64,000 bases of DNA from Sinorhizobium fredii. GTDB lineage: Bacteria > Pseudomonadota > Alphaproteobacteria > Rhizobiales > Rhizobiaceae. The notes beneath the pieces were generated by a model, which made no database searches, was not told the origin of the DNA, and was given only the letters and a program-made list of their open reading frames with translations. The DNA lies in contig NZ_CP024308.1 of assembly GCF_002944405.1 (NCBI RefSeq), positions 310,001 to 374,000 on the forward strand, in the 5' to 3' direction. The number at the start of each line of letters is the position of its first letter. The stretch's first letter is position 1. Position numbers and translations under genes: made by a program. Below are positions 6,953-58,875 of the stretch, piece after piece.

Positions 6953-9900
6953 ATGGACCAGAAATTGGATCCGCCGATTGTCGGAATTGGGGCTTCTGCA
7001 GGAGGCGTCCAGGCACTTCAGACCTTCTTCGATCACATGTCGACCGATACCGGCGCGGCTTTCGTGGTCATCATCCATCTTGATCCGCGTGCCCGCAGTG
7101 AGCTCGCCAATATCCTGGCGTCCCGCACCCAGATGCCGGTGACGCAGGTCGACGACACGGCGAAGCTCGAGGACAACCACGTCTACGTCATTGCGCCGAA
7201 TCGGCGGCTGAAGATTGCCGACGGTACGATTGCCGCGCTTGAGTTCGAAGAGACGCGCGCGGCTCGCGCTCCAATCGACTTTTTCTTTCGATCGCTCGCC
7301 GAACACAATGGGACCGGCTTTGCCGTCATTCTCACCGGTGCAGGTGCAGATGGTGCGGTCGGCGTCAAGGCCATCAAGGAGGCCGGCGGCATTGTCCTGG
7401 TGCAGGATCCGAACGAGGCTGAATATGCCTCCATGCCCCGCAATGCCATTGCGACCGAAGTGGCCGATTTCGTGCTTCCCGTCACCGAGCTTTCCGAGCG
7501 CCTGATCGAGTTGCTCGCCAGCCGCGACGCACTTCCCTCCCACCCGATCCGATCCAGCGACGAAGATCTGCTGGCGCGAATCCTGGCGCATGTGCGCGTT
7601 AGGACCGGTCACGATTTCTCGCAATACAAGCGGGCCACGATCTTGCGCCGCATCGGCCGCCGGGCGCAGGTCACCAGGAAAGAAACGCTTGCCGACTATT
7701 ACGCCTATATGCGCGAGAATCCGGAAGAAGCGCAGGCGCTTTTCAGCGATTTCCTGATTTCGGTTACGACGTTCTTTCGCGACCCGGCGGCGTTTCAATC
7801 GCTGGCCGAGAACGCCATCCCGCAACTGTTCGACGGGAAGGAAGCCGGCGACAGCATTCGGGTCTGGGTTCCCGGTTGCGCCACGGGCGAGGAAACCTAC
7901 ACGGTCGGCATTCTTCTGCTCGAGGAAGCGGCGCGCCGCGATCTCGCGGCCGACATCCAGGTCTTCGGCTCCGATCTTGATGTCGGCGCTCTGGCGATCG
8001 CCCGCGAAGGGCGCTTTCCCGCGACGATCGAAACCGACCTTAGCGAGGAAAGACTGCGGCGGTTCTTCCAGCGGGAAGGCGATCATTATCGCGTGCGCCG
8101 GGAGCTGCGCGACGTCGTGCTGTTTGCCAGCCATAGCCTGCTCAGGGACCCGCCCTTTTCCCATCTCGACATGATCTCCTGCCGCAACCTGTTGATCTAT
8201 CTCGATCGGCAGCTTCAGCAGCAGGCCTGCCAAACGTTTCATTACGCCCTCAACCCGGGAGGCTTCCTCTTCCTGGGGTCGTCGGAAAGTGCCGACAACC
8301 CGAACGGGCTCTTCCGCACGGTCGATCGGGAGGCACGCATCTACAGGTCGGTGCCAGGCGCCGGCGATCGCCGCCCGGTGCTGCCCGTGCTGCTCGGTGC
8401 GCACCATGGGGTGGAGCGGACACCGGTGGTCGCACGACCGCCCTTGGCGGCCGGGAGCGTCAGTGACGCAGCCTTGCACCGGCAGATGCTCGAAAAAATC
8501 GCCCCGCCAAGCATGGTCGTGGATGAAAGCCATCGGGCGGTCCATCTCTCCGAGAACGCCGGCCGCTTTCTGCAGCCATCCGGCGGACCGGTCAGCACCG
8601 ATGCCACGGACCTCGTGCGCGAGGAATTTCGCTTCGACCTCCGGGCGGCGCTGCACCGTGCCTTCGAGCGCAACGAAGCGACGCTCAGCATGCCGATCCT
8701 CGCTCACCTCGATGGACACCCTCATCGCGTCTATCTCCAGGTAAAGCCGGTCCTTCAAGGAACCGACCCGACGCGCCATGCCCTGGTGTTGTTCATCGAA
8801 GGCGATGTGCTGGACCCTTCCGAAGACGCCGTCGAGTCGTCGAACGGTCGCGTGCCGACCAATCTGGCGGTCCGGCAATTGCAGGAGGAACTGCAGCTCG
8901 CCCAGAACCGGCTTCGGGCGACCAGAGAGGAATCGGAAGCGGCCAACGAGGAACTGCGCGCCGCAAACGAAGAGCTCCAGTCGATGAACGAGGAGTATCG
9001 GTCGACGGCGGAAGAGCTCGAGACGAGCAAGGAGGAACTGCAGTCGATCAACGAAGAGCTGCAGACTGTCAACAACGAGCTCAAGCTGAAGCTGGAAAGC
9101 GTGTCCCGTGCGCACAGTGATTTGCAGAATTTGATGGCCGCGACCGATGTCGCGACACTTTTCCTCAACCCGTCGCTCCGCATCAAGCGCTTCACGCCGC
9201 GCCTGATGGAGATTTTCAACGTCACCCAGAATGACGAAGGACGGCCGATCACCGACTTTACGCATCATCTCGAATACGAGAACCTGGCGGAAGATGCGCG
9301 CTCCATATTGGAGGACCTCGCTCCTGTCGAACGGGAAGTCAAGAGCCGCAACGACGGTTGGTATCTCGTGCGGATGCGTCCCTATCGCACCATCGACGAC
9401 AAGATCGATGGAGTGGTGGCGACATTTGTCGACGTGACCCAGCGCCGCAAGGCCGAAGAGATGGCGCGAGAAAGCAAGCAGCGCCTCGAGCAGGAAATGC
9501 GGCTGGTCGAGCTCTCACGCTCGCCGATCTTCGTGTGGGATTTCGACGACGGCATCAAACAGTGGAATCGAGGCAGCGAGGAGCTTTACGGCTATTCGCG
9601 CGAGGAGGTCGTCGGGAAACAAAAGGAAGAGCTGCTCAAGACGGTCGTGCCGGGCTCGTCATTCAACGTGCTGCGGCAGGCCCTCCTTGAAAAGGGCCAT
9701 TGGAGCGGCGAACTGAACCATACGACAAAGGACGGGCAGGTGCTGACGGTGGAGAGCCAGATCGAGCTCCTGCCGCTCGGCGACCGACGCCTTGTCCTCG
9801 AAAGCACCCGCGACGTCACAGACCGCAAACGCTGGGAGCGGCGCCGGCAGCTCCTGCTGAACGAACTCAGCCACCGCGTGAAGAACACGCTTGCCGTCGT

Positions 9901-40979: not shown

Positions 40980-41774
40980 TCAAGCCGACACTTCGGTCAG
41001 TTCGTCAGCGCTATGGGGTGCGGAGCGAGGCGAGATCAGCGTCGCTCCGAAGTAGCGCGACGCAGCCTCGGTGCGGTTGCGCACGTTCATCTTCTTGTAG
41101 ATGTTGCGGACATGACCATTGACGGTGTTTTCGGAAAGACCGAGACGTTTGGCGATGATCTTGTTCTGCGTGCCCATGGATATGAGATCGAGAATCTGGA
41201 TCTCGATCATCCTGAGGAGGCCTGGGGCAAATTCGGTCTTGCGTTCCATATCGGTGTCTTCCGAAGGCCCCTGTTGCGCGACAACGCCGTCCCCTGCGAG
41301 CCCTCTCGGCGCCAGGCGCCGAAGCAACGCGGCGGGAAAATGCTCGCCGCCCTTCATCAAGAGATCAATGGCGGTGAGGCATAAGTCGAGATTGAGGGTC
41401 AGAGGCAGTACGCCCTGAAGCAATCCTTCGTCGACAAGCCCAGCGATCGACGAGTCGAGCTCGTCCGCATTCTGCACCATCAGGCCGATCGCGGCCATTG
41501 GATAGAACTCGTGGATCGTCCTCATGAACGATGGAAGTACTGCCGCCGGCAGGCGGTAGAGCATCACCAGGCTTACGTCGACAAGCGTACCGTCCAGAAG
41601 CCCGTCGGAATCGGAAAGGCTTACTGTGTCTTGATCTTGAAAACGCGCGCTGATCGCGTGCGTTAGACATTCGGCGAACAGGTCGGTCTTCGCGAGCACT
41701 ACAATCTTGCTTTTCTTCTGTAATACCTTGTTACAATCTTCAATATTGTTCAGGGTCGGGCTTGTATGGTCCAA
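40980..41774 (-). CDS. LuxR family regulator with receiver-like N-terminus
   Basis: 264 residues. The N-terminal 130 residues look like a degenerate receiver fold (KIVVLAKTDLFAECLTHAI, no clear phospho-Asp). The C-terminal helix-turn-helix is complete (ILDLISMGTQNKIIAKRLGL, SENTVNGHVRNIYKKMNVRN, RTEAASR). Rhizobia use such regulators in motility and exopolysaccharide control; the target here is unknown. A long AT-rich upstream region follows its start. Confidence 0.85.
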   Translation of the reverse strand: MDHTSPTLNNIEDCNKVLQKKSKIVVLAKTDLFAECLTHAISARFQDQDTVSLSDSDGLLDGTLVDVSLVMLYRLPAAVLPSFMRTIHEFYPMAAIGLMVQNADELDSSIAGLVDEGLLQGVLPLTLNLDLCLTAIDLLMKGGEHFPAALLRRLAPRGLAGDGVVAQQGPSEDTDMERKTEFAPGLLRMIEIQILDLISMGTQNKIIAKRLGLSENTVNGHVRNIYKKMNVRNRTEAASRYFGATLISPRSAPHSADELTEVSA

Positions 41775-43161: not shown

Positions 43162-44085
43162 CGCCTAGTAGATGCGCCATGAAATCTCTGCCGAATTCGA
43201 TTTGGCTTCGCACGGAGCCAAGCTGCCGCTAGGCACGGTCACCACCTTATGAAGGGAGGCAAACCACGACGTTGCAGATCGTCTTGCCGCTCCCGACAGA
43301 CGCATGAGCATCGGCGACTAGCTCCCTACCCAATCTTGCTAGACGTCAAAGTGATCAGCACTTTCCCATCTGAACCAAGGCCGCCGGCTCTTCCTTGACG
43401 GGTCGCGCGTCGGGCGCCCCACCCATTCGCGGATGTCGAGCCCGTCATTTACGCGCTCGCTGACGGCGACGCGCCTCGGGTCACCGGCGCGGAGGTGCAT
43501 GAAGCTTCAGGCAGTGAATGCCACTTGAGCAAGGCAAACAGAAAAATTCTCCCAACAACCGGGCACCTCCTGCGAGGCAGCGACGAGCGGATCCTCGCTT
43601 TCGAGCCACATGAAGCGGAATATTGTGCCGGTGCGGGAACGGGTAACAACTACTGCGAGCCGCGAGTTGGTTTACAGGCTGTGGCGCGTAATCCAAATGA
43701 GCTATGAATTATTTCATTAGCAGCAGTTGTATTAGCGATTCCTTTAATATAACTTGTATTGTTTAATGCAGGACCAAGAGCACATGCCTGGTTCCAACCG
43801 TTAAAAGTCGCGGTCGGAAAGAGGGGGAGTGTTGGTTATGCGCGACGAGAGGCAGTGCCCTTTCCGCGCAGCCCTGTTGAGTTTGGCTGCCGGAATTTCT
43901 CGCACATTCGGAGTAGTCGGGACGCACAGTTGAGCGATCCAGCGTCTCACTTTTGATCAAACCAGTTCAGGCAAGTAATCCGCCGATCCGGATTCGGAGC
44001 GGTGGGCCTCGCGTTGGGGGCCAGAGCCAGAGATGACCTCTTACCAGCGACTTCAGTCCCGCTCTGGCGAACAAGGGAGGAAATC
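43162..44085. other. Gene-poor region with decayed coding traces
   Basis: About 920 bases with no supported gene. Near 43400-43500 the reading IYALADGDAPRVTGAEVH recalls the C-terminal end of a short-chain dehydrogenase, probably a remnant. 43700-43770 is an AT-rich patch, possibly promoter sequence for the operon starting at 44086. Confidence 0.4.
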
Positions 44086-44409
44086 ATGCTTAGACATCAT
44101 ATCTTCATGGCAAGCGCGGCCGCCGCCTTCTTCGGAGGGATCATGTTGTTCGATGTCGGGGGCGCTCAGGCCCAAACCTGTCCCGGCGTATCGCAAGACC
44201 AGTGCGTCGAATTGTGCGGTGCGGCCGGGGTTGCCTCCTGCACGAAGACCGGTTCAACGCCGAATTGCGTCTGCAACGAAGAGACCAAGAATGTAAACGG
44301 CAATGCCTTTGGCACGGCAACGACGAATACCGCTTCCGGTCAGGGCAACATCGGCAACAAGACCGAGGAAGAGTGCACGGGCAACGCGGGGCAGTGCAAA
44401 AAGCAATAG
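44086..44409 (+). CDS. Secreted Cys-rich small protein with defensin-like cysteine pattern
   Basis: 107 residues. GGAGG lies before ATG 44086; upstream in-frame codons lack one. Signal peptide to about residue 29 (ends GGAQAQ). The mature part has eight Cys. The first six are spaced C-x7-C-x3-C-x7-C-x8-C-x1-C, that is CxxxC and a later CxC, which is the CS-alpha-beta (defensin/scorpion-toxin) signature. Two more Cys follow a Gly/Asn/Thr-rich linker. Whether it folds that way is inference. It precedes a MacAB-like exporter and is separated from it by a strong hairpin, so it may be an exported peptide, a periplasmic partner or a sensor. Confidence 0.75.
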   Translation: MLRHHIFMASAAAAFFGGIMLFDVGGAQAQTCPGVSQDQCVELCGAAGVASCTKTGSTPNCVCNEETKNVNGNAFGTATTNTASGQGNIGNKTEEECTGNAGQCKKQ

Positions 44410-44517
44410 CACCAACGTAAGGGCGACTTGGGATACAGGAGGAGGGAACCACGGCCTGCTGGCCAAAACCGGTGAAGCCCACCGCGACCGTGCTTCGAAC
44501 TTCCTGAACCAGATCAC

Positions 44518-44541
44518 GAGCCGGGGAATTCGCCCCGGCTC
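44518..44541 (+). terminator. Hairpin between the Cys-rich gene and the exporter
   Basis: GAGCCGGGG (44518-44526) pairs perfectly with CCCCGGCTC (44533-44541) over the loop AATTCG. It ends 15 bases before the adaptor ATG (44557) and lacks a T-run, so it is more likely an attenuator or mRNA-stability element than a full stop. Confidence 0.6.
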
Positions 44542-44556
44542 CGATACGGGGTGAAC

Positions 44557-46011
44557 ATGATACGCAGCCTTTTATTCGCGGCAGTGGTTGTTGGCGGGAC
44601 AGCAATACCCGCCTACACCGAGGTGCCACTTCCGTCTGCTGCTTTCGACCGGATTTCCTCTGCCTTCACATATCTGAGAACTTCCTTGAAGACGATCTCA
44701 GGCGGTAGCATGAGACCTGGCTACCGGATGCGAGATGTTGTGCGTGGCGACATGGTCACCTCCTTGCAGGCGGCTGGCACTCTCAATGCGTTGGTATTGG
44801 TCGAAGTCGGCTCTCAGTTGTCCGGACGGATCAAGGAGCTTTACGCCGATTTCAACTCTCGTGTGACTCGGGGCCAAGTCATAGCCCGCGTCGAGCCAGA
44901 GCTATACGAAGCGAGGCTGGCTCAGTCCCGGGCCGAGCTGGAAATGGCCCGGACCCAGGTCGCGATACAGCGGGCGCAAATCGACAGGGTTCAAGCTGAA
45001 CTTGAGACCGCCACCGCCAAACATAATGCCGCAGCGGCTGAGACCGAGCAGGCCCAGGTGGTGCTGGACAGCGCTCAACGGGAAATGGAACGCAAGCGCC
45101 CATTGGCGAAGCGCAAGGTAATTGCGGCGAGTGAATGGGAGCGCGACAGCACCGCCTACAAGACTGCCGAAGCACAGGCTGGCGCCGTCCGCGCGGATCA
45201 GCTCTCGCAAGCCGCTGCCGTTCGGGCTGCGCAGGCGGCTCTGAAGATGGCTGAAGCACAACTCGCCAACACCCTGGCAGAGGTCAAGCAGAGGGAAGCG
45301 GTGCTACGGCAGGCAGAGATCGATCTCGAACGCACCTATATACGGGCACCAGTCACCGGAACTGTCGTCAATCGCGCCGTTAGCGGCGGCCAGACCTTGG
45401 CAGCAAGTCTGCAGACACCGATCCTCTTCACGATTGCCCAAGACCTCACCCAGATGCAGGTCGAGGCTTCCGTCGTTGAAGCCGATATCAGCAAATTTGC
45501 TGTTGGGCAGCCCGTGACCTTCACTGTCGATGCCTATCCGGACCGCATCTTTACCGGCGCGGTCCAGCAAATCCGGAAGGCTCCCCAGATCGTCCAGAAC
45601 GTCGTAACCTACACCGCTGTGATCAGCGCACGGAACCCAGATGAGTTGCTGTTGCCCGGCATGACTGCAAATCTGAACGTGGTAGTGGCAAGACGAGCAA
45701 ATGTTCTGACCGTCCCCAACGCAGCGCTCCGCTTTCGCCCGAGCATCGAAGCTGGGAATGCAGCCGCGGTCGCAGGCGAAGCATCGGCGAGAGCAGACAG
45801 TGAAACTGAGGGCACTCTAGGTCGGGTGTTCGTGCTGGGGAGCGACCGCACCCCACGCGCGGTGTCACTTCGTCTCGGTGTGACAGACGGACGGGTGACA
45901 GAGGTGCTGGGAGGCGAGCTGGGCGAAGGCGAGCGAGTGATTACCGGATTGGAGCCGACAGCGGACGGTAGAAATGAAACGTCGTTCCTGATCAAGTTTC
46001 GGCTGCAGTGA
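44557..46011 (+). CDS. MacA/HlyD-type periplasmic adaptor
   Basis: 484 residues. N-terminal signal or anchor (MIRSLLFAAVVVGGTAIPAY). Lipoyl half-motif near 95-120 (VEVGSQLSGRIKELYADFNS, RVTRGQVIARVEP), a long coiled coil (about 125-260, Ala/Glu/Gln rich), second lipoyl half (LERTYIRAPVTGTVVNRAVS), then the beta-barrel and membrane-proximal domains (GQPVTFTVDAYPDRIFTGAV, LLLPGMTANLNVVV). Links an inner-membrane ABC protein to an outer-membrane channel; no TolC-like gene is in the window. The longer form from GTG 44551 is less likely. Confidence 0.88.
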   Translation: MIRSLLFAAVVVGGTAIPAYTEVPLPSAAFDRISSAFTYLRTSLKTISGGSMRPGYRMRDVVRGDMVTSLQAAGTLNALVLVEVGSQLSGRIKELYADFNSRVTRGQVIARVEPELYEARLAQSRAELEMARTQVAIQRAQIDRVQAELETATAKHNAAAAETEQAQVVLDSAQREMERKRPLAKRKVIAASEWERDSTAYKTAEAQAGAVRADQLSQAAAVRAAQAALKMAEAQLANTLAEVKQREAVLRQAEIDLERTYIRAPVTGTVVNRAVSGGQTLAASLQTPILFTIAQDLTQMQVEASVVEADISKFAVGQPVTFTVDAYPDRIFTGAVQQIRKAPQIVQNVVTYTAVISARNPDELLLPGMTANLNVVVARRANVLTVPNAALRFRPSIEAGNAAAVAGEASARADSETEGTLGRVFVLGSDRTPRAVSLRLGVTDGRVTEVLGGELGEGERVITGLEPTADGRNETSFLIKFRLQ

Positions 46012-46012
46012 C

Positions 46013-46765
46013 ATGCCAGGGGATGTTCTGATAAAAATTGAAGGAGTGCGCCGGAGTTATCGAGTCGGCGGAAGACTGACCTGGGCCCTCGACTATGTAA
46101 CCCTCAACGTGCGGCGTGGCGAGTTCGTGGCGATCATGGGGCCGTCTGGCTCGGGCAAGTCGACCTTCATGAACATTCTTGGCTGTCTCGACAGTCCCAC
46201 CGAGGGGGGATACCGGTTGGACGGAACAGACGTCAGCCGCCTCCACCACGACGAACTGGCGGTAATCCGCAATCAAAAGATTGGCTTCGTATTCCAGTCG
46301 TTCAATCTGTTGCCGCGCGCCAGCGCTCTCGAAAACGTGGAGCTGCCACTTCTCTATCGCCGCATGTGGGCTAGCGAGCGCCGCCGCCGCGCCCTTGTGA
46401 CACTGGCGCGGTTCGGGCTTGCGGAACGCGCCGCCTATATGCCCACGGAACTCTCAGGCGGGCAGCAGCAGCGGGTCGCGATCGCAAGGGCATTGGCAAC
46501 GGAGCCCTTACTTCTGCTTGCCGACGAACCGACCGGTGCGCTCGACAGCCACACGGGCCAGGAGATCATGGCCATCTTCCGCCGCCTGAATGGCGAAGGT
46601 TTGACGATCGTCTTGGTCACGCATGAAGCAGGAGTCGCCGCCTGCGCCGACCGCATCGTTGCATTTCGCGATGGACGCGTTCTGGACGATGGGCTGGCTA
46701 ATCGTGTTGAGGAGCAGTCTGGCCCCTGGCGAGCATTATTATTGGCAGGCGACAATGCCGGGTAG
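46013..46765 (+). CDS. MacB/LolD-type ABC ATPase
   Basis: 250 residues. Walker A MGPSGSGKSTFMNILGCLD, FQSFNLLPRASALENVELPL, signature [15 protein letters not shown], Walker B LLLADEPTGALDSHTG and VTHEAGVAACADR. This group powers mechanotransmission transporters rather than import. It starts one base after the adaptor stop and overlaps the permease gene by 11 bases, so all three are coupled. Confidence 0.92.
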   Translation: MPGDVLIKIEGVRRSYRVGGRLTWALDYVTLNVRRGEFVAIMGPSGSGKSTFMNILGCLDSPTEGGYRLDGTDVSRLHHDELAVIRNQKIGFVFQSFNLLPRASALENVELPLLYRRMWASERRRRALVTLARFGLAERAAYMPTELSGGQQQRVAIARALATEPLLLLADEPTGALDSHTGQEIMAIFRRLNGEGLTIVLVTHEAGVAACADRIVAFRDGRVLDDGLANRVEEQSGPWRALLLAGDNAG

Positions 46766-47981
46766 CGTCAGAACAGCATTTCGGTCATTGCGTTCCCATC
46801 CGATGCGCAGCTCTCTGACCATGCTCGGCATTATTATCGGAGTCTCTGCCGTCGTCGTGATGAGCGCCATCGGCAATGGCGCACAGGAGCGGATCGATTC
46901 ACAGATCCGCAGCCTCGGCTCGAATCTCATCAGCGTCACTCCGGGTAGCGCCAGGATGGGCAGCGTACGGCTGGGCAGCGGCGCGGCGCCAAAATTGAGC
47001 GAAGAAGATGCACTCGCGATCGGCTCCGAGCTGCCTGGCGTCGTCGTCGCGGCGCCGCTCCTTCACGCTCGGACACAATTTGCAATCGGGGCTAGCAACT
47101 GGCAGGGTGTGCTTCGTGGCGTCACCCCTGAGTATTTCGCTGCGCGTGAATGGCGGGTCATTGCGGGGCGGGAGATGACTCCGGAGGACAACAAGCGCGC
47201 CATCAGTGTAGCGCTGCTCGGAACGACGATGCGAGAAAAGTTGTTCGGGGATTCGGACCCACTCGGCGCGACCATCCGCATACGGGACGTCCCCTTCGTC
47301 GTAATTGGGTTGCTCGAGCGAAAGGGACAAAGTGTCTGGGGTGACGATCAGGATGATATCGCGTTGGTGCCAATAAGAACGGCTAGACGCCAATTCATTG
47401 GAACAAGCCGAGCCAATCCAACCCTCGTGCACAGCATAGCCGTGAGATTCGACGACGGAGCCTCGCCGGAAAGCATCATGCTGGCCATACGCGACCTTCT
47501 CTGGCAGCGTCACCGCTTGAGCAAGGGTCAGGAAGACAGCTTCATGGTGAGCAACCTTGCAGAGGCGGCGGACGTCGAGGGCTCGACTACGCGAGTCATA
47601 TCGCTGTTGCTTTCAGCGGTCGCCTCCGTGTCCTTGGTGGTGGGCGGCATCGGTATCATGAACATCATGCTGGTGACGGTCTCGGAGAGGACGAGGGAGA
47701 TCGGATTGCGACTCGCAGTCGGCGCACGCCGGCGAGACATCCTCAGGCAATTTCTCATCGAGGCGGTGACTCTTGCCGTTCTCGGCGGCATCCTTGGCCT
47801 GCTTCTTGGAATCGCCGCGGCAACCGGTATCGGCATACTCGCCGGATGGCCAATCACCTTTGATTTGAACCCAATGCTCTTGGCAGTAGCCTTCGCTGCC
47901 GGCGTAGGCGTTTTCTTCGGCTATTACCCCGCCCGCAAGGCGGCACGGCTGCTGCCGATAGAGGCATTGCGCTTGGAGTGA
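46755..47981 (+). CDS. MacB-type ABC permease
   Basis: 408 residues. N-terminal span (SLTMLGIIIGVSAVVVMSAI), a large periplasmic domain (about 45-285), then three C-terminal spans with the FtsX core (SLVVGGIGIMNIMLVTVSER, TREIGLRLAVGARRRDILRQ). ATPase and permease are separate genes here, unlike the fused E. coli MacB. Known substrates of the class include peptides, toxins, macrolides and heme precursors. The Cys-rich protein encoded upstream is an obvious candidate partner. Confidence 0.9.
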   Translation: MPGSVRTAFRSLRSHPMRSSLTMLGIIIGVSAVVVMSAIGNGAQERIDSQIRSLGSNLISVTPGSARMGSVRLGSGAAPKLSEEDALAIGSELPGVVVAAPLLHARTQFAIGASNWQGVLRGVTPEYFAAREWRVIAGREMTPEDNKRAISVALLGTTMREKLFGDSDPLGATIRIRDVPFVVIGLLERKGQSVWGDDQDDIALVPIRTARRQFIGTSRANPTLVHSIAVRFDDGASPESIMLAIRDLLWQRHRLSKGQEDSFMVSNLAEAADVEGSTTRVISLLLSAVASVSLVVGGIGIMNIMLVTVSERTREIGLRLAVGARRRDILRQFLIEAVTLAVLGGILGLLLGIAAATGIGILAGWPITFDLNPMLLAVAFAAGVGVFFGYYPARKAARLLPIEALRLE

Positions 47982-48171: not shown

Positions 48172-49963
48172 TGCAGCGCGACAACCAAGATGAGACGCGC
48201 ATTGCCTCGCCGAAACTGTTCCCGAATACTCAACCGTTGCCTCACATAATTTGCTCCCTACCGAGGGGTATGAACAGGGGCGACTATGGGACAGCTGAGC
48301 ATGGCGACGAGGAAAGAACTGACGGCGGCGGTTTCGGAGCGTTATCGTGCTTCGACGCGAACGGAGAAGGCGAGAATTCTGGATGAGTTCGTCGTCATCA
48401 CGGGCTTTCACCGCAAGCACGCGATGCGGCTGCTGCGGCGCCACGGGAGAGAGCCTACAGGTCGGCGAGCGCGGCCGCGGGTTTATGATGAAGCGGAACG
48501 CAATGCGCTCATATTGCTGTGGGAAGCGTCTGACCGGGTCTGTGGGAAGCGGCTGAAGGCGTTGCTACCCGTCCTTGTCGAGGCGATGGAACGGCACGGT
48601 CATTTTGACCTCGCGCCTGAGATCCACGGCAAATTGCTGGCGATGAGCGCGGCCACGATCGACAGGACGCTGGGACCGATCCGGGAGGGCTTGGGACGTC
48701 CTCGACGGCGGCCCGCGGCGCACGCCCTGCAACGGAGCATTCCCATTAGAACGTCGGCGGGACAATCCGGCGCCAGGCTTCGTTGAGGCGGATCTCGTCG
48801 CCCATTGCGGCCCTTCGGCTCGCGGCAGCTTCATCCAAACCCTTGTTCTCACCGACATCGCGACTGGCTGGACGGAATGTGCGCCGCTGCTGGTTCGCGA
48901 GCAGACGCTGTTGAGCAGCGTGCTCACAGAATTGCGCAAGCAACTGCCGTTCGCGCTTCTCGGCCTGGACACGGACAACGACACCGTCTTCATGAACGAG
49001 ACGCTGAAGGCTTACTGTGACGCCGCCAATATCGTCTTTACGCGCTGCCGCCCCTACCGCAAGAACGACCAGACCTTTGTCGAGCAGAAGAATGGCGCCG
49101 TCGTGCGCAGGATGGTCGGATATCGTCGGTTCGAGGGACTGGAGGCCGCCACGCTGCTAGCGAAGCTCTACCGATCAGCGCGGCTGTTCGTAAACTTCTT
49201 TCAGCCATCATTCAAATTGATCGCAAAGCAGCCGACGGCGCTCGTGTGCGCAAGACGTATAGTCCGCCAGCCACGCCGCATCAGCGTCTGATTGCCGACG
49301 CTCGCACGTCAGATGCAGTCCGCTCCCGTCTGCGGGAAATCTACGCTGGGCTCGATCCTGTCCTGCTATTGCGCGATATTCGCGCCCTACAGGAGCGACT
49401 CGCTGCGCTTGCCGACACTCCGCCGGCCATGCGCACTGACGGGGTAGCTCAGCCGATCGACCTTTTCCTCGCGAGTTTGCGGACGGCCTAGAAGGACGGA
49501 GCTACCCGGCCGACGGATCGTCCGATTGTAAAAGCCAAAAGAGGACGGCGGCGTCCTGACCCTCTCGTCAAGGCGACCGCCGACTTGCGAAGTTGGTTCG
49601 AAGCCGAACCATGGCGAACCGGCAGTGAACTCCTGTCACGTCTGCAGGCCCAGTATCCCGGCGATTACCCCGACAAACTGCTTCGAACGCTTCAGCGCCG
49701 GCTGAAGGTCTGGCGAAGTGAACAGGCGGACGCGTTGCTGTTTGGCACCTTGAACAAGGAGCTGCCGATCCACGAGATCGCAAGGCCGCACTGAGGTGCC
49801 GTAGCGCTCGCGAAGGAGGCCAGGCGCTGCGAAACCCCTGCCATCTCCGCGCCCGGCCTCCTTCGCCCCAACCCGGGAGCAAAATGAATGAGGCAACGTG
49901 CGAATATCGGGGAGCATCGTTACGTGCGGCAATACGTGATCTCAGCCAGATTGTCGCTCTACA
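48172..49963 (+). mobile_element. Insertion sequence with long imperfect inverted ends
   Basis: 1,792 bases. The left end (48172-48258, starting TGCAGCGCGACAACC) and the reverse complement of the right end (49875-49963, starting TGTAGAGCGACAATC) align over about 87 bases with a few mismatches and short gaps. The element is flanked by the perfect 7-bp duplication CCCTCGC. It encodes one DDE transposase (48286-49794) that is broken. TGT-type ends and a short duplication would suit an IS481-like or unclassified (ISNCY) element; the family is not certain. Confidence 0.85.
48286..49794 (+). pseudogene. DDE (integrase-core) transposase, broken
   Basis: N-terminal helix-turn-helix (TASTR-type opening, VITGFHRKHAMRLLRRHG), then an rve-like core: first Asp in GFVEADLVAH, second in LGLDTDNDTVFMN and Glu in DQTFVEQKNGAVVRR. 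The frame breaks near 48762 (several bases missing before the GFVEADLV run) and near 49235, and an in-frame TAG at 49489-49491 replaces an expected Trp. The C-terminus reads on to GTLNKELPIHEIARPH. About 503 codons if repaired. Inactive as written. Confidence 0.8.
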
Positions 49964-51418: not shown

Positions 51419-54400
51419 ATGGCTATCGTGATCACATCGACTGGCGTATTTGCCGTTCTCGACGAAACTGACGGCCTGCAGAACGCGACCGCTACGCCCG
51501 CCCCTCCATCGCCCTCGGGCGACGCCGACGACAACGACATTTTGAGCAGCAGCTTGCCGGCACCATTTTCGAGTCGGCTGACCTCCTACAGCCTGACAGT
51601 GGATGAGGCCGCACTGAGCGGGTACACCGGCGCCAACACCGGCGCAAACATCATCAACATCACCGGCGCCACGGCGTCTACCGACCTGGCGCTCACCGGC
51701 GCGAATGGGGCAGCGTTCCCGGATTATGAGACAGGCGCGACGTCCACCTTCAGCAGCGGTCTGTTCGCGGTGGCTGATGACGGGACCATCTCGGAAATCT
51801 TTCTCTTCACCGATCCGACCAACAATAACATCGTCTATGGCGTGGCCGGCGACAGCGGCGACGATCCGATTGTGTTCGCGGTCTATCTCGAAGAGGTAAA
51901 GACGTCCGGCATCACCACCGGAGCCAAGATGTGGAGCGTGCTTGCGGACGGCTACACGCTGGCACACACCACCGACGGCAGCTCCGTTGCCGCGCACGAC
52001 GACTTTCTTGATCTGACGAACAAGCTGTTCGTCTCCGCCATCGCGGAGAATGACTTTTCCTTCGCAAATGCGCCTTCCGGCCAGAACCTCTTCATGATGT
52101 TCGGAAACACGACGCTGGCAATCCTCGTCACCGGCGAGGATCCGGCCAACCAGTCGGCCGGCCAGAATGTGTCGAATGACGGCGACACCGTCAATACCGG
52201 CCAGGGCGGCGGTGCCACGACGCTCGGCACCGAAGGTCAGCAGATCAAGGCCCAAAAGGCGTTGGTCGTCACCTTCGTGACCGGGGCCAATTCCAACTTC
52301 CTCGTTCCCGGTCTCACGCCGACCGAGGCAAACCTCGAGTCTAACATCGCCTTCAGCGGTTATGCCCAGGACGTTACCGGTGCCGCGATCACGATCTCGC
52401 AAATGACACCCGGAAGTGCCAGCACGACTGCGAGCGTGGAGCTTCAAGCCTTTCTCACGGCAGACACAAGCGGGACCGGCTATATCGACAATAATCCGCT
52501 CACGACGGGCGATGCGGCCGTCGCCATCGCGTCGGTGCAGGTCATCCGCGGCGGGGTCGACGTCACCGGCACCCTCGGTGTGAACGTCACGATAAGTGGC
52601 GGCATAGCCACGATCATGGGCGTGAAGGATGACGACATCATCCAGTACACGACCACCGGCGACCATAACCGCGTGCTGATCCGGAACGATCAGCCGGCAA
52701 CGGGCCAAGGCAGCAACGTTGCCTTCGATCTCGGCGGCTTCACAATCACGCAGGTCTCGAGTGACGTCGAGGAGGTCGGCTCGAAGGTCAGGTTTGAGGA
52801 TGATGGCCCGGATGCCGTGGCGAAGAACGTGGCGGGCCCGACGGCAACGCTCGACGAATCGCCGCTGCCGACCAGCGGCGACGGCGTGAATTCGGTGACG
52901 ATCGCAGCGACGACGATCGCCGCGCTGTTCGAGACCCCTGATTTCGGCGAGGATGGCCAGGGAAGCGTGAGCTACACGCTGTCCGGCACCGCTGGCGCTC
53001 AGACCGGACTGTGGCTCACCGGGGAATCTGGGGCGGCCAACGAGATCCTGCTGGTCAAGGTCAGCGACACCCAGTGGGAGGGCCGCAAGGCTGGCGCGGG
53101 CGGCACGCTCGCCTTCACCGTGTCGATCAACGGCACGACCGGCGCCGTCACCGTCACCCGCAGCGCCGCCACGCTCGAGCACACGGTCGACGGCAGCAGT
53201 GCTGCGGCGCATGACGACGCCTTGACGATGGCGGCCACCGCCAACCTGTTCGTGGTGCAGCATGTTACCGACGGCGATGGCGACACCGACAGCGCCACCG
53301 CAACCAACCCGTTGACCATCAAGTTCGAGGATGACGGGCCGGATGCCGTGGCGAAGAACGTGGCAGGGCCGACGGCAACGCTCGACGAATCGCCGCTGCC
53401 AACGGCTGGCGACGGCGTGAATTCGGTGACAATAGCTGCGACGACGATCGCCGCGCTGTTCGAGACGCCGGACTTCGGCTCCGACGGCCAGGGCAGCGTG
53501 AGCTACACGCTGTCGGGCATCGACGGCGCGCAGACGGGGCTGTGGCTCACCGGCGAGTCCGGGGCGGCCAACGAGATCCTGCTGGTCAAAGTCAGCGACA
53601 CCCAGTGGGAGGGCCGCAAGGCTGGCGCGGGCGGCACGCTCGCCTTCACCGTGTCGATCAACGGCACGACCGGCGCGGTCACCGTCACTCGCAGCAGCGC
53701 CACGCTCGAGCATACGGTCGACGGCAGCAGTGCGGCGGCGCATGACGACGCGCTTACGATGGCGGCCACCGCGAACCTGTTCGTGGTGCAGCATGTTACC
53801 GACGGCGATGGCGACACCGACAGCGCCACCGCAACCAACCCGTTGACCATCAAGTTCGAGGATGACGGGCCGGATGCCGTGGCGAAGAACGTGGCGGGCC
53901 CGACGGCAACGCTCGACGAATCGCCGCTGCCGACCAGCGGCGACGGCGTGAATTCGGTGACGATCGCAGCGACGACGATCGCCGCGCTGTTCGAGACCCC
54001 TGATTTCGGCGAGGATGGCCAGGGAAGCGTGAGCTACACGCTGTCGGGGACCGCTGGCGCTCAGACCGGACTGTGGCTCACCGGGGAATCTGGGGCGGCC
54101 AACGAGATCCTGCTGGTCAAGGTCAGCGACACCCAGTGGGAGGGCCGCAAGGCTGGCGCGGGCGGCACGCTCGCCTTCACCGTGTCGATCAACGGCACGA
54201 CCGGCGCCGTCACCGTCACCCGCAGCGCCGCCACGCTCGAGCACACGGTCGACGGCAGCAGTGCTGCGGCGCATGACGACGCCTTGACGATGGCGGCCAC
54301 CGCCAACCTGTTCGTAGTGCAGCACGTCACCGATGGCGATGGCGACACCGACAGCGCCACCGCAACCAATCCGTTGACGATCAAGTTCGAGGATGACGGG

Positions 54401-55486
54401 CCCGCTGTCACGGTCGACAACTCCAGCGGGACATACGACGCCGGGGCCCAGGGAACCTGGGACGACAATGATCCCGGCAGCGACGGGTTCGAGTCGCTGA
54501 GCGTGAACTTTGATAGCTATGAGATTGACGACGATGGTCTCGTCACCGTCGATGCTGCACTTATTAAGACGGGCGAATTCACGTTCACCGGGTCGATCAC
54601 GGACGACTTCAACAGCGACGGCGCCGATGAGACAGTTGGCTTCACGCTGACCTTCGATCCGGTCAACGATACTTACGACCTCGATGTGACGACGCCGCCA
54701 CCGACTACTAGAACCTTCGACACCTCGCAGGGATCGCTGAAAGCCGGTGGACCCGACGCAGTGCAGACGCTGCTGTTCGGCGGCAGCGAGGCGGGAGCCG
54801 ACGACATCGTGTTCTTCGGCGTCGTCGCGACGGCGCCGATCCAAGGCGTGTCCTCACCCCCGACAAACGACATCGAAGATCTCGTTGTCGAGGGAGCCGG
54901 CGACCTGACGGAGGCGCAGATCGAGGGGCTGTTCCCGATCCCAAGCCTGATCAACCCGTCGACGCAGATGAACGTGTCGACCTCGGGCATCGGCATCAAC
55001 AACAACAATCTCAACGGTGCGAGTGAGGGCGCCGGGACTGGAGCCTTTGCGGGCACCTCGATCACCTCGGGCGACGAGAGCTTCGTCGTCAACCCCGAGA
55101 CGGTGGTAGACAAGGTGACGGTGTTCATCGACAACTCCGTCGGCGGCTATAACCCGGCCACCGAGGATCTCTATTTCACCGTCTATTATACCGACGGGAC
55201 CATCCAGGCAGCGACGAAGGTGGCGGCCGGCATGCTGACCCCGGTCACCTCGGGCGTGGCGGCGGGCGGCTTTTCCTTCGAGATCGATGGTGGGGCCAAG
55301 CAAATCGACGCGGTCCAGCTCACCATGGGCCAGGGAACCATCAAGATCCCGGTGATCGCGTTCTCGGTCGAGCAGGTGTTCGACCCCGAAGCGCTGCAGC
55401 TCGACTTCACCGCGACCCTGTTCGACGGCGATGGCGACAGCAGTTCCGATTCGTTCTCGATCGATCTGATCGAGGCGGTTGTCTGA
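51419..55486 (+). CDS. Large repeat protein, probable type I secretion substrate (DUF5801/RTX-like)
   Basis: 1,355 residues, acidic, Cys-poor, no N-terminal signal. An N-terminal region (about 1-460) contains VDEAALSGYTGAN- and ITGATASTDLAL-type beta segments like DUF5801 repeats-in-toxin proteins. Three tandem 177-residue units follow (about 465-995), each ending DGDGDTDSATATNPLTIKFE-DDGP. Units 1 and 3 are identical in protein sequence and unit 2 differs at five positions. The C-terminal part ends TLFDGDGDSSSDSFSIDLIE, typical of uncleaved C-terminal type I signals. Asp/Gly-rich turns suggest calcium binding. Followed by its probable ABC exporter and adaptor. Likely a surface or released adhesin. 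Confidence 0.82.
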   Translation: MAIVITSTGVFAVLDETDGLQNATATPAPPSPSGDADDNDILSSSLPAPFSSRLTSYSLTVDEAALSGYTGANTGANIINITGATASTDLALTGANGAAFPDYETGATSTFSSGLFAVADDGTISEIFLFTDPTNNNIVYGVAGDSGDDPIVFAVYLEEVKTSGITTGAKMWSVLADGYTLAHTTDGSSVAAHDDFLDLTNKLFVSAIAENDFSFANAPSGQNLFMMFGNTTLAILVTGEDPANQSAGQNVSNDGDTVNTGQGGGATTLGTEGQQIKAQKALVVTFVTGANSNFLVPGLTPTEANLESNIAFSGYAQDVTGAAITISQMTPGSASTTASVELQAFLTADTSGTGYIDNNPLTTGDAAVAIASVQVIRGGVDVTGTLGVNVTISGGIATIMGVKDDDIIQYTTTGDHNRVLIRNDQPATGQGSNVAFDLGGFTITQVSSDVEEVGSKVRFEDDGPDAVAKNVAGPTATLDESPLPTSGDGVNSVTIAATTIAALFETPDFGEDGQGSVSYTLSGTAGAQTGLWLTGESGAANEILLVKVSDTQWEGRKAGAGGTLAFTVSINGTTGAVTVTRSAATLEHTVDGSSAAAHDDALTMAATANLFVVQHVTDGDGDTDSATATNPLTIKFEDDGPDAVAKNVAGPTATLDESPLPTAGDGVNSVTIAATTIAALFETPDFGSDGQGSVSYTLSGIDGAQTGLWLTGESGAANEILLVKVSDTQWEGRKAGAGGTLAFTVSINGTTGAVTVTRSSATLEHTVDGSSAAAHDDALTMAATANLFVVQHVTDGDGDTDSATATNPLTIKFEDDGPDAVAKNVAGPTATLDESPLPTSGDGVNSVTIAATTIAALFETPDFGEDGQGSVSYTLSGTAGAQTGLWLTGESGAANEILLVKVSDTQWEGRKAGAGGTLAFTVSINGTTGAVTVTRSAATLEHTVDGSSAAAHDDALTMAATANLFVVQHVTDGDGDTDSATATNPLTIKFEDDGPAVTVDNSSGTYDAGAQGTWDDNDPGSDGFESLSVNFDSYEIDDDGLVTVDAALIKTGEFTFTGSITDDFNSDGADETVGFTLTFDPVNDTYDLDVTTPPPTTRTFDTSQGSLKAGGPDAVQTLLFGGSEAGADDIVFFGVVATAPIQGVSSPPTNDIEDLVVEGAGDLTEAQIEGLFPIPSLINPSTQMNVSTSGIGINNNNLNGASEGAGTGAFAGTSITSGDESFVVNPETVVDKVTVFIDNSVGGYNPATEDLYFTVYYTDGTIQAATKVAAGMLTPVTSGVAAGGFSFEIDGGAKQIDAVQLTMGQGTIKIPVIAFSVEQVFDPEALQLDFTATLFDGDGDSSSDSFSIDLIEAVV
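52810..53340 (+). repeat. 531-bp tandem repeat, unit 1
   Basis: First of three in-frame units in the large repeat protein. Almost identical in DNA to unit 3 and identical to it in protein. Confidence 0.9.
53341..53871 (+). repeat. 531-bp tandem repeat, unit 2
   Basis: Middle unit. Five amino-acid changes relative to units 1 and 3 (in PLPTAGDG, FGSDGQ, SGIDGAQ and TRSSATLE) and more silent changes. Confidence 0.9.
53872..54402 (+). repeat. 531-bp tandem repeat, unit 3
   Basis: Last unit, followed by a different segment (AVTVDNSSGTYDAG). Near copy of unit 1. Confidence 0.9.
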
Positions 55487-55493
55487 CACGGCT

Positions 55494-55522
55494 GCGAGCC
55501 CGCCTCGGTAGGGTGGGCTCGC
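55494..55522 (+). terminator. Hairpin between the secreted protein and its exporter
   Basis: GCGAGCCC (55494-55501) pairs perfectly with GGGCTCGC (55515-55522), starting seven bases after the stop. In type I secretion loci such hairpins reduce read-through so that substrate is made in excess of exporter. Confidence 0.65.
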
Positions 55523-55560
55523 ATCTTCCCAGCAAGGCTTCCAGTCGCGGAAGGTAATCG

Positions 55561-57327
55561 ATGCCGCCGAGTACCAGCACCACCCGCCTCGCCGAGGTCA
55601 TAAGCGCTATCCGCAGGCAGTTTCCGCTGCTGATCTTGCTGAGCTGCCTGCTCAACCTCTTGCTCCTCGTCAGCAGCATCTACATGCTGCAAGTCTATGA
55701 CCGGGTGCTGTCGAGCGGGTCGCTGGACACGCTCCTGTGGTTGACGTTGATAGCGATTTTTGCCGTTGTCATTTACGGCGCGCTCGAGCAGGCAAGGCGG
55801 GTGGTCCTCGGCCGTGCGGCCGGCTGGCTCGACAGCGAGCTCAACGCGCCGATGCTGAAACGCGCCATGGAAGTGCGGCTCGCGGGCAAGGAAGGTCGCG
55901 CCGGCAGCCGCGACGTGACCGACCTCAGGTCCTTCTATGCGGGCGATGCAGTGCTCGCCTTACTCGACATGCCCTGGAGCGTCATCTTCCTCGCCTTCAT
56001 CTGGGCTCTGCACCCTGCCTTGGGTGTGGTTGCCACCGGCGGCGCCGCCATCCTTCTCGGGCTCGCCTTGACAAACGATGCGCTGACACGGGACCGCCAG
56101 AAGCGCGTCACAGCCGTCACCAAGGCCCATCAGGAGAATGCCATGCGCTATGTCGATGGCGGCGAGACGATCCGACCTCTCGGCATGGCACAGGCTGTCT
56201 TCGACCGTTGGCGCCGCCGTCAGGCCGAAGTGGTGGCCGAACAGCAGCTCCTGGCCGATCGGACCACCACGATCCTTTCGATTTCGCGCAGCCTACGGCT
56301 CATCCTGCAGATTGCTATCTTGGCTGTTGGCGCCTATTTCGTCCTTCTCGGCGAGATGACCGCGGGCGCGATGATTGCAGGGTCCATCGTCATGGGCCGC
56401 GCGCTTGCGCCGATCGAACGGGCGACCGGTGCCTGGCGTTCCTTCGTCGCAGCAAGGAACGCCCATGCAAACCTGAAGGAACTCTTCGCCGGCACGTCAA
56501 ACGGTGACCACGACCGCGTCACCCTCCCCCGTCCGAAAGGCGGGCTCGCCTTCGAGAACGTGTTCTATTTGCCTCCCGGCACACAGGAGCCTGTCCTCAG
56601 CGCCATCAGCTTCGCGATCCAACCGGGCGAAAACTGTGCAGTGGTCGGACCGTCCGGAGCCGGAAAATCGACGCTCTGTCGCCTCGCTGTCGGCGCCTGG
56701 AAACCGACCAAGGGTCACGTCCGCCTCGACGCGGCGGACGTTTTCGACTGGGACCCGGAGGAATTGGGCCCACATATCGGCTATTTGCCGCAGCAGGTCG
56801 AGCTTCTCCCGGGCACGGTGGCTCAGAACATCGCACGTTTCCGGGAGGTGGACAGCAACGCGCTGATCCGGGCAGCGGAAGTCGCCGGCGTTCACGAACT
56901 GATCCTGTCATTGCCGGACGGCTACGAAACCGAAATCGCACTGCACTCGCAGCGGATCTCACTGGGGCAGCGGCAGCGCCTCGGGCTGGCGCGCGCCCTG
57001 TACGGCGATCCGGCATTCGTCGTGTTGGACGAGCCGAATGCGAACATGGACGAAGCCGGAGACCGGGCTCTGATCGAAGCTCTGACGACGCTCAGGCAGC
57101 TCCGAACGACCGTGTTGATCGTCACGCACCGCGCTTCCGTGCTGAAGTGCGCCGACAAGGTCCTGGCACTTCATAGCGGCGCCGTTGCTGCCTTCGGCCC
57201 GCGCGAGCAGATGGTGCGGCAGGTACAGCCGGCGGGAACGGCGCCCGCAAGACCCCTGCAAGCTCCTCATCCAGAAGATCGAACACAGGTCGTCGGCCGC
57301 GAGAACCGCCTTTCCGCGGGGGAATGA
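55561..57327 (+). CDS. Type I secretion ABC transporter (PrtD type)
   Basis: 588 residues. Six-span membrane domain (first spans about 20-45 and 57-80; LLILLSCLLNLLLLVSSIYM with LQVYDRVLSSGSLDTLLWLT), then an ATPase: Walker A VVGPSGAGKSTLCRLAVGAW, signature ISLGQRQRLGLARALYGDP and Walker B FVVLDEPNANMDEAGDRAL. No N-terminal peptidase domain, so it exports proteins with uncleaved C-terminal signals. 75 bases after the repeat-protein gene and three bases before the adaptor. Confidence 0.93.
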   Translation: MPPSTSTTRLAEVISAIRRQFPLLILLSCLLNLLLLVSSIYMLQVYDRVLSSGSLDTLLWLTLIAIFAVVIYGALEQARRVVLGRAAGWLDSELNAPMLKRAMEVRLAGKEGRAGSRDVTDLRSFYAGDAVLALLDMPWSVIFLAFIWALHPALGVVATGGAAILLGLALTNDALTRDRQKRVTAVTKAHQENAMRYVDGGETIRPLGMAQAVFDRWRRRQAEVVAEQQLLADRTTTILSISRSLRLILQIAILAVGAYFVLLGEMTAGAMIAGSIVMGRALAPIERATGAWRSFVAARNAHANLKELFAGTSNGDHDRVTLPRPKGGLAFENVFYLPPGTQEPVLSAISFAIQPGENCAVVGPSGAGKSTLCRLAVGAWKPTKGHVRLDAADVFDWDPEELGPHIGYLPQQVELLPGTVAQNIARFREVDSNALIRAAEVAGVHELILSLPDGYETEIALHSQRISLGQRQRLGLARALYGDPAFVVLDEPNANMDEAGDRALIEALTTLRQLRTTVLIVTHRASVLKCADKVLALHSGAVAAFGPREQMVRQVQPAGTAPARPLQAPHPEDRTQVVGRENRLSAGE

Positions 57328-57330
57328 AGC

Positions 57331-58875
57331 ATGTCTGATATGCTGGATCTGATCAATTTTGCTGTGGTCTGGACGGAGACGCGGCTAGCCCGCGCCATGG
57401 AGGAGCTGCCGGCCGGTTACGCCGCGACGATCGCTACGATCCGTGACCGGTTGGCGCTTGCTGGCATTCCATTGAGCGACACAACCGTTGCACTCATCGT
57501 ATCGGGGACTGCAGCGGTCGCCTTTTTCGTCCTTGCGCGCATGCTTCGCTTCAGCGTTCGACGTGGCGCCGAAAAGTCGCCGGATGCCCTCACGAACGCC
57601 ACCCGGATGCCGCGACGTTTGGGGCTTCTGGCAATAATACTGTTCATCCTGGTGTTGGGCGGCTGGTCCGTGCTCGCCCCGCTGGCGAGCGCGTCGCTCG
57701 CCCCGGGGGTCGTCAGCCCCGACGGGTATCGCAAGACCATTCAGCACCTCGAAGGCGGGATTATTCGGTCGATTCACGTTCGCGAGGGTGATGTGGTCAA
57801 GATTGGAGATCCGCTGATTACCCTCGATGACATCAGGGCCAGGTCTCAAGACGCGGAAATACGGGAGCGGCTTCTGCACGTTTTGGCAACCGAGGCGCGA
57901 CTGGAGGCCGAGCGGACCGACGCTGCCGAAATCAGCTTCCCGGACTTTCTCATTCACAACAGCAGCTCTGCCGGCCTACAGCGACTGATGGAAGGGCAGC
58001 GGCAACTATTCATCAGCCGGCGAGCAGCGCATCGAGGTCGCATCCAGATTCTGGAGGCACGAACTCGCCAACTCGAGGAGCAGAACGCGGGTCTCCGTGA
58101 GGTGATCGCCGCTGAAACCGAGCAGATCGCGCTGATTGACGAAGAAATAACGGCCGCGCAGGATCTTCTCGAAAAGCATTTGGAGCGCAAACCGCGAATA
58201 TTGGCCCTCAAGCGGCATCGTGCCGACATCGCAGCCGCAAAGGCAGCGAACCGGTCGAAGATCGCCGAGAATGCACAGGCCGTTGGCGAGACGAGACTGC
58301 AATTGCTTACGATAGCCGAAGAGCGCCAGGAAAAGCTCGGTGCGGAGCTCGCCGAAATGCGCCGTATCCTGGCGGAGCTCAAAAGCCAGCTACCGACACG
58401 CGAGGACGTACTTGAGCGCACAGTCATTCGAGCTCCGCTTCCCGGCACTGTGATGAATCTGCGCGTCACGACGGAGAGAGGCGTCATAGATCCAGGACAG
58501 CCGCTCCTCGACCTGGTTCCAAATGACAGCGGAGTGGTCATCGACGCCCGGGTCCGACCGATCGACATCGAGCGCGTCAGGTCCGGCATGTCCGCCCGCG
58601 TAATCCTCACGGCTTATCGACAGCGGAACTTGCCGCTCATTCATGGCCGGCTGCGCTCGATCTCAGCGGATGCGATAGCCGATGAACGAGCGGGAACAAC
58701 CTATTTCCTGGCGAAAGTGGTGGTCGCGCCTACCGACCTCGCAAAACTCGACGACGTGCACCTTATTCCGGGAATGCCGGCGGAGGTCATGCTCATGGAC
58801 GGCGAACGGAGCCTCTTCGCATATCTTCTTGCCCCGATTATCGACAGCGGTCGGCGGAGCCTTATTGAGAACTAG
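57331..58875 (+). CDS. Type I secretion HlyD-family adaptor
   Basis: 514 residues. An N-terminal extension with two hydrophobic segments (about 47-70 and 92-112, LGLLAIILFILVLGGWSVLA), then LAPGVVSPDGYRKTIQHLEG and the lipoyl-like GGIIRSIHVREGDVVKIGDP. A long coiled coil spans about 170-350. C-terminal barrel: ERTVIRAPLPGTVMNLRVTT and LIPGMPAEVMLMDGERSLFA. The usual form is about 440 residues with one span; the extra N-terminal 60-90 residues with a second span are unusual. No outer-membrane TolC-like gene is adjacent. Confidence 0.92.
   Translation: MSDMLDLINFAVVWTETRLARAMEELPAGYAATIATIRDRLALAGIPLSDTTVALIVSGTAAVAFFVLARMLRFSVRRGAEKSPDALTNATRMPRRLGLLAIILFILVLGGWSVLAPLASASLAPGVVSPDGYRKTIQHLEGGIIRSIHVREGDVVKIGDPLITLDDIRARSQDAEIRERLLHVLATEARLEAERTDAAEISFPDFLIHNSSSAGLQRLMEGQRQLFISRRAAHRGRIQILEARTRQLEEQNAGLREVIAAETEQIALIDEEITAAQDLLEKHLERKPRILALKRHRADIAAAKAANRSKIAENAQAVGETRLQLLTIAEERQEKLGAELAEMRRILAELKSQLPTREDVLERTVIRAPLPGTVMNLRVTTERGVIDPGQPLLDLVPNDSGVVIDARVRPIDIERVRSGMSARVILTAYRQRNLPLIHGRLRSISADAIADERAGTTYFLAKVVVAPTDLAKLDDVHLIPGMPAEVMLMDGERSLFAYLLAPIIDSGRRSLIEN

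Follow-up and report, generated by a model that had tools for sequence, protein, structure and literature searches.

The nearest published mechanism that we found for the system discussed here is that of STII of Escherichia coli, which is described as passing through Sec and Dsb before export by MacAB-TolC; the same source calls the substrate range of MacAB-type systems an open question (PMC5985334). The bacterial cis-defensins offer a second point of reference. They are described as occurring in Proteobacteria, including the alphaproteobacterium Paramesorhizobium desertii, and the main text of that description contains neither "ABC transporter" nor "MacB" (PMC11561630). Here, we describe four genes in a 64,000-nucleotide stretch of Sinorhizobium fredii (contig NZ_CP024308.1, positions 310,001 to 374,000; hereafter the window, whose own numbering is used throughout): a gene for a small, cysteine-rich, apparently exported protein, followed by the genes for an adaptor, an ATPase, and a permease of the MacAB type. 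We put at roughly 0.58 the probability that the four act together as one unit, by which a small disulfide-bonded protein is made and exported. No such unit turned up in the open-licence PubMed Central literature searched, outside of which lie most subscription papers and all preprints, and this agrees with an initial annotation of the window, which knew of no described system of this make-up in rhizobia.

Four linked genes

The small gene (44,086 to 44,409, forward strand) starts with ATG behind a ribosome-binding site, GGGAGG (44,075 to 44,080, forward strand), whose GGAG is conserved across the compared loci. As the initial annotation had read from the same open reading frame (ORF), the product is an exported-looking protein of 107 residues. 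It consists of an N-terminus that by inspection resembles a signal peptide (about residues 1 to 29), a six-cysteine core (about 30 to 66), and a C-terminal tail (84 to 107; the C-tail). The eight cysteines of the mature protein are at 32, 40, 44, 52, 61, 63, 97, and 104; the first six are spaced C-x7-C-x3-C-x7-C-x8-C-x-C, and the last two form a further, C-terminal pair. A homologue search returned 15 proteins at E≤1, including the window's own entry, and all eight cysteines are invariant in the alignment of the window protein with the other 14, which together indicate that the ORF is a genuine gene; an AlphaFold2 model of the core is given below. A loose regular expression for the cysteine-stabilized alpha-beta (CS-alpha-beta) pattern matches this protein alone in the window and finds 0.02 matches per shuffled 64-kb window (50 mononucleotide shuffles). 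The protein matches no Pfam family at E≤1 and no NCBIfam family. A defence-system reading was tried with PADLOC and dropped: the small protein and the adaptor had no match, and the ATPase and permease only general ones.

The three transporter genes follow on the same strand after a gap of 141 nt. The MacA-type periplasmic adaptor (44,551 to 46,011; GTG start, with an ATG at 44,557 also possible) matches Pfam HlyD_D23 (E 1.3e-19) and scores 134.8 bits against NCBIfam RND_mfp, for which the cut-off is 94.9. The MacB-type ATPase is a separate chain (46,013 to 46,765; Pfam ABC_tran, E 7.3e-33, and NCBIfam), and the MacB-type permease (46,755 to 47,981), identified by Pfam, NCBIfam, and its place in a tree, carries the periplasmic core domain (MacB_PCD, E 3e-47) and an FtsX domain (E 1.5e-19). 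ATPase and permease ORFs overlap by 11 nt, so that the description of these genes as overlapping or nearly touching stands. The parts that characterise the MacAB inner-membrane complex are present: MacA-type adaptor, ATP-binding cassette (ABC) ATPase, MacB periplasmic core domain, and FtsX-type permease. The pair is not the macrolide MacB equivalog, since it is made of two chains, which score 265.3 and 251.2 bits against a cut-off of 966.

The small gene is linked to a MacAB-type exporter. In all 12 located members of the small family (the window, L002 to L011, and L058) the adaptor, ATPase, and permease genes lie directly behind it, in the same order and on the same strand, which bears out by gene neighbourhood the association that had been proposed from the window alone. 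L002 to L011 come from a scan of genome contigs with two peptide patterns, in which 10 of the 38 stretches that matched were confirmed as relatives. Eight of these records are from Mesorhizobium, one is from Phyllobacterium, and one is labelled "Rhizobiales bacterium" (G625 was inferred to be the same record as L010 and counted once). Their transporter proteins are 58–81% identical to those of the window. When 11 loci were compared over 13–16 kb, nothing but the four genes, with ORFs antisense to them, was common to all; among clusters of at least three loci, none outside the four genes occurred in more than five of the 11.

The twelfth member was reached from the transporter side. With the adaptor as query, 210 genomes of the class gave eight matches at E≤1e-90, the window's own included; the closest of the other seven (G1001, locus L058), from another family of the class, has the small gene in front. 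This locus was found through its adaptor alone, and the small family member was recognised afterwards (tblastn E 2e-8, profile E 9.7e-27). No small gene was found in front of the adaptor at the other six loci of this search, nor at two Azospirillum brasilense plasmid loci and G158. In all, nine of nine outgroup loci with adaptor, ATPase, and permease (L026, L027, L049, and L059 to L064; permease identity about 46–54%) lack it within the stretch covered, which for L049 and L059 reaches about 1 kb upstream of the adaptor. Two overlapping sets, L016 to L024 and L028 to L034, have a permease of about 51–52% identity and no profile match to the small gene; they were left out of the outgroup count, since neither an adaptor nor an ATPase was matched within the stretch covered. 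In the permease tree the 12 loci with the small gene form one clade (support 100/100), apart from five outgroup loci.

Weak profile matches at L012, L013, L014, L037, and L038 were dropped as members, having neither the C-tail nor an adaptor or permease within about 3 kb; in L014 that stretch holds an ATPase match alone, of a general kind. L037, L038, and L012 encode small, exported-looking, Lys-rich proteins that start C-x-GLSK/T-x-x-C.

The unit is rare and patchy. The small gene was found in one of 60 relatives searched, namely the window's own genome, and in none of the 32 other genomes of the genus that were searched. Of 394 genomes of the family, the same two have both a full-length match to the small gene and a close permease, and weak partial matches in two more were dropped. 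Plasmid records gave no match in tblastn with the small protein or P0028, and viral contigs none to the single tail pattern searched.

A near-invariant tail and a variable cysteine core

A profile search gave 166 homologues, and the figures that follow rest on the 120 listed, which with the window protein make 121 rows (one listed entry being the window's own); gene neighbourhoods are known for the located loci. The family is modular: a signal peptide, a variable cysteine core, a linker rich in Gly, Thr, and Asn, and a near-invariant C-tail. The tail pattern is GxGN..C-x-G-x-x-G-[QH]-C-K, with the consensus TGQGNLGNK..CTGNxGQCK over 57 rows, and it is the best kept part of the protein (mean majority fraction 0.77 vs 0.62 for the core). 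Residues G85, G87, N88, C97, and G99 are identical in every row and C104 in 120, P0076 having a gap at that position.

The core, by contrast, occurs in three cysteine states. All six core cysteines are present in 41 rows (40 counted by alignment column, and P0108, whose C1 is misaligned), that is, in the window protein and 40 of the 120 listed; here C1 and C4 accompany C-x3-C and C-x-C, as in the cysteine pattern of CS-alpha-beta peptides. Their spacing is x7-x3-x6..9-x8..10-x1 in 37 of the 38 rows with all six scored, P0108 being shorter. Only C2 and C5 are kept in 76 rows, of which P0079 and P0082 have extra cysteines outside the core. Four rows have C2, C3, C5, and C6: P0053 and P0068 lack C1 and C4, and P0072 and P0073 show this set with shorter spacing. 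In the latter two the C2–C5 interval is 15 residues, as it is between the core cysteines of 71 two-cysteine rows. Two-cysteine cores also occur within the linked exporter clade (L010, L011, and L058).

Core cysteines are therefore gained or lost in matching pairs, and only one pairing, 1-4, 2-5, and 3-6, fits the states 1-6, 2,3,5,6, and 2,5. We predict these core bonds with moderate confidence, noting that the argument draws on perhaps three independent changes among related rows and that which cysteines are retained depends on the alignment. The same bond pattern is that of CS-alpha-beta peptides.

The modelled fold is compatible with this pairing. For residues 29 to 69 AlphaFold2 gives one helix (37–47) and a two-stranded sheet (49–55 and 58–63), at a predicted local distance difference test score (pLDDT) of 77.9 and a predicted template modelling score (pTM) of 0.45, so that the core fold is held with moderate confidence. 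The model of the whole protein, made with 20 rows, was set aside (pLDDT 47, no useful fold match), and matches of the core model to known structures are weak. Of the defensin-like character claimed in the initial annotation, a predicted helix-hairpin core with a compatible cysteine pairing is supported. The family label is not, in view of the two-cysteine members, the missing GXC, the acidic protein, and the lack of a sequence match: the window protein matched no defensin family, and one of 16 cores matches Gamma-thionin at E 0.083. Where the GXC of the gamma-core would be expected, the window protein has A-S-C (at C52) and P0108 has G-T-C. The four- and six-cysteine cores of the family correspond to the cysteine-stabilized helix (CSH) motif and to the complete CS-alpha-beta fold, respectively, as these are described: four cysteines for the motif, with two more completing the fold (PMC5116183).

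Proposed export, target, and origin of the core

By analogy with STII, the small protein most likely leaves the periplasm through a MacAB-type pump of its own; we regard a Sec-then-pump route as the most likely one because STII is the nearest published mechanism. The precursor would enter the periplasm through Sec and lose its signal peptide. In the core, a helix would then pack against a two-stranded hairpin, the bonds being C32–C52, C40–C61, and C44–C63, and a C97–C104 bond would close a loop at the extreme C-terminus. Once folded, the protein would leave the periplasm by way of the pump and a TolC-type channel whose gene lies elsewhere in the genome, and the C-tail, being constant across core types, would be the likely recognition element for the adaptor or permease. 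Outside the cell the variable core would act most likely on competing bacteria; we favour such rivalry, as a first guess, in view of the rare and patchy occurrence of the unit and because nothing was found that ties it to a plant host.

Several points weigh against this reading. The four genes include no outer-membrane channel gene of their own; a TolC-family protein is encoded elsewhere in the genome (349.8 bits, cut-off 225.15) and is only putatively the partner of the pump. There is no evident immunity gene among the four. In L011 the adaptor is split over two overlapping ORFs in different frames (8407 to 9892), which may reflect a broken gene, a misassembly, or a sequence error. The window protein is acidic, with an isoelectric point (pI) of 4.8, and most antimicrobial peptides are not; median pI is 4.52 in the 41 six-cysteine rows and 4.66 in the 80 others, which reach 8.96.

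Finally, the pump might not carry the small protein at all but work with it as a partner. The protein would then stay in the periplasm and hand a compound, such as an antibiotic, a peptide, or a porphyrin, to the adaptor, and the unit would be a resistance pump. MacAB-type pumps are indeed described as also expelling antibiotics and protecting producers against peptides (PMC5985334), the small gene stands beside the pump in every located case, and a near-invariant tail could equally be a docking element. We nevertheless think this unlikely: in our judgement a core that is more variable than the tail, and whose number of disulfides changes within the linked clade, would be unusual for a docking subunit, and the nine outgroup loci have adaptor, ATPase, and permease with no small gene in the stretch covered.

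An export unit aimed at other bacteria is also preferred over one that delivers a signal or effector to a plant host, which we consider quite improbable. The genome does contain nodC, and the carriers named to genus are Mesorhizobium, Phyllobacterium, and Sinorhizobium. The unit is not on the nodC contig (C3), however, the 32 other genomes of the genus that were searched lack the small gene, and one carrier (L058) belongs to another family of the class. For the same reasons of contig and family, the tie to the nodule-specific cysteine-rich peptides of plants, suggested in the initial annotation, finds no support.

As for where the core came from, a gain of disulfides within the family appears the simpler reading than a loss, because the protein has no defensin relative and no GXC, is acidic, and because two-cysteine carriers branch first. 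In the permease tree, which was midpoint-rooted with the midpoint falling on the outgroup branch, L058 and then L010/L011 branch before the six-cysteine carriers, the deciding fork having support of 87/83. By eye, the loop lengths suggest losses in P0053 and P0068 and gains in P0072 and P0073. Tentatively, then, the CS-alpha-beta scaffold may have arisen a second time here, by the stepwise addition of bonds 2-5, 3-6, and 1-4 to a one-bond ancestor, with the pump-coupling C-tail held constant and members of each step still alive. If so, a dedicated MacAB pump would use the tail as its export signal; to our knowledge, no cargo signal of this kind is known. That the small protein is instead a true cis-defensin, sharing descent with the CS-alpha-beta peptides found in animals, plants, fungi, and myxobacteria, is very improbable, given a core profile that matches no sequence of a solved structure (PDB) at E≤10, the missing GXC, a pI of 4.8, and the early branching of two-cysteine carriers, at that modest 87/83. 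A bufferin reading, raised by the DUF2282 label on the UniRef entry of P0032, was dropped, as P0032 has no Pfam match.

Surrounding elements and comparison with known systems

Two non-coding elements accompany the unit. Just 5' of the ribosome-binding site lies a leader inverted repeat, GCCAGAG-N-CTCTGGC (44,020 to 44,068, forward strand; an inner copy of the first arm is at 44,026). It is present in the window and in all ten of L002 to L011, with one second-arm base changed in L004 and L011, arms about 23 to 33 nt apart, and a conserved 5' half; it was not found in front of the L058 small gene. In its own genome the pattern occurs at this site and once on C3, no more commonly than a reversed control. 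Against a plain hairpin, none of the seven pairs shows a change in both arms, and L003, L006, and L010 are predicted to fold preferentially in other ways. The repeat may be a DNA operator or an RNA hairpin, perhaps in a leader RNA that can pair in more than one way.

Between the small gene and the adaptor gene is a predicted stem-loop (44,518 to 44,541, forward strand), an eight-pair helix that compensatory changes maintain over 11 loci despite differing sequence. Four of the eight pairs changed on both sides, a figure reached by 11 of 500 shuffles, and the covariation score is 0.452 vs 0.241 in shuffled alignments (reached by none of 500), with 94.3% vs 83.2% of cells paired. The number of further pair types is ordinary (118 of 500 shuffles), and the alignment that was scored is also the one used to predict the structure. 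The stem-loop probably controls how much small protein is made relative to the pump. Rfam gave nothing above any family cut-off for 43,700 to 44,700.

Some neighbouring genes of the window deserve mention. Right behind the permease gene, at 48,286 to 49,291, are pieces that by eye resemble a broken transposase- or integrase-type ORF (no Pfam match) and may mark how the unit arrived. At 51,419 to 58,875 is the gene for a 1355-residue repetitive protein with three DUF5801 stretches. The ORFs after it resemble, by eye, genes for an ABC transporter and for an HlyD-type adaptor; the repetitive protein is probably a type I secreted surface protein. A LuxR-type regulator gene (GerE domain; 40,980 to 41,774, reverse strand) lies about 2.3 kb upstream of the unit and is in no cluster of at least three compared loci.

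Among known systems, the lactococcin 972-type ABC transporters (TIGR03608) share a MacB-type ATPase and permease with a linked small peptide; the ATPase described here scores 192.4 bits against that family, below the cut-off of 254.85. The YknXYZ (SDP) and AS-48 systems of Gram-positives likewise combine a MacB-type ATPase, a permease, and an adaptor with a linked small peptide, and differ in that these transporters, as described, protect against the peptide (PMC5985334). The cis-defensins of classes I to V are secreted, with three core disulfides and CSH spacing, much as is predicted for the window protein; compared by description, all of them have the GXC that the window protein lacks (PMC11561630). 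AdDLP is described as lacking it too (PMC5116183). If the proposed reading holds, a single family would supply a natural gradation of cores, with one, two, or three disulfides, and so open the origin of a defensin-like scaffold to study. With STII the proposed likeness is one of route: Sec to the periplasm, disulfides, and a MacAB-type tripartite pump. The MacAB-TolC that exports STII is described as a multi-substrate pump (PMC5985334), whereas here small gene and pump genes are conserved together as a unit which, if it works as we propose, would be a dedicated cargo-pump pair for MacAB-type systems, with the constant tail as a candidate cargo signal.
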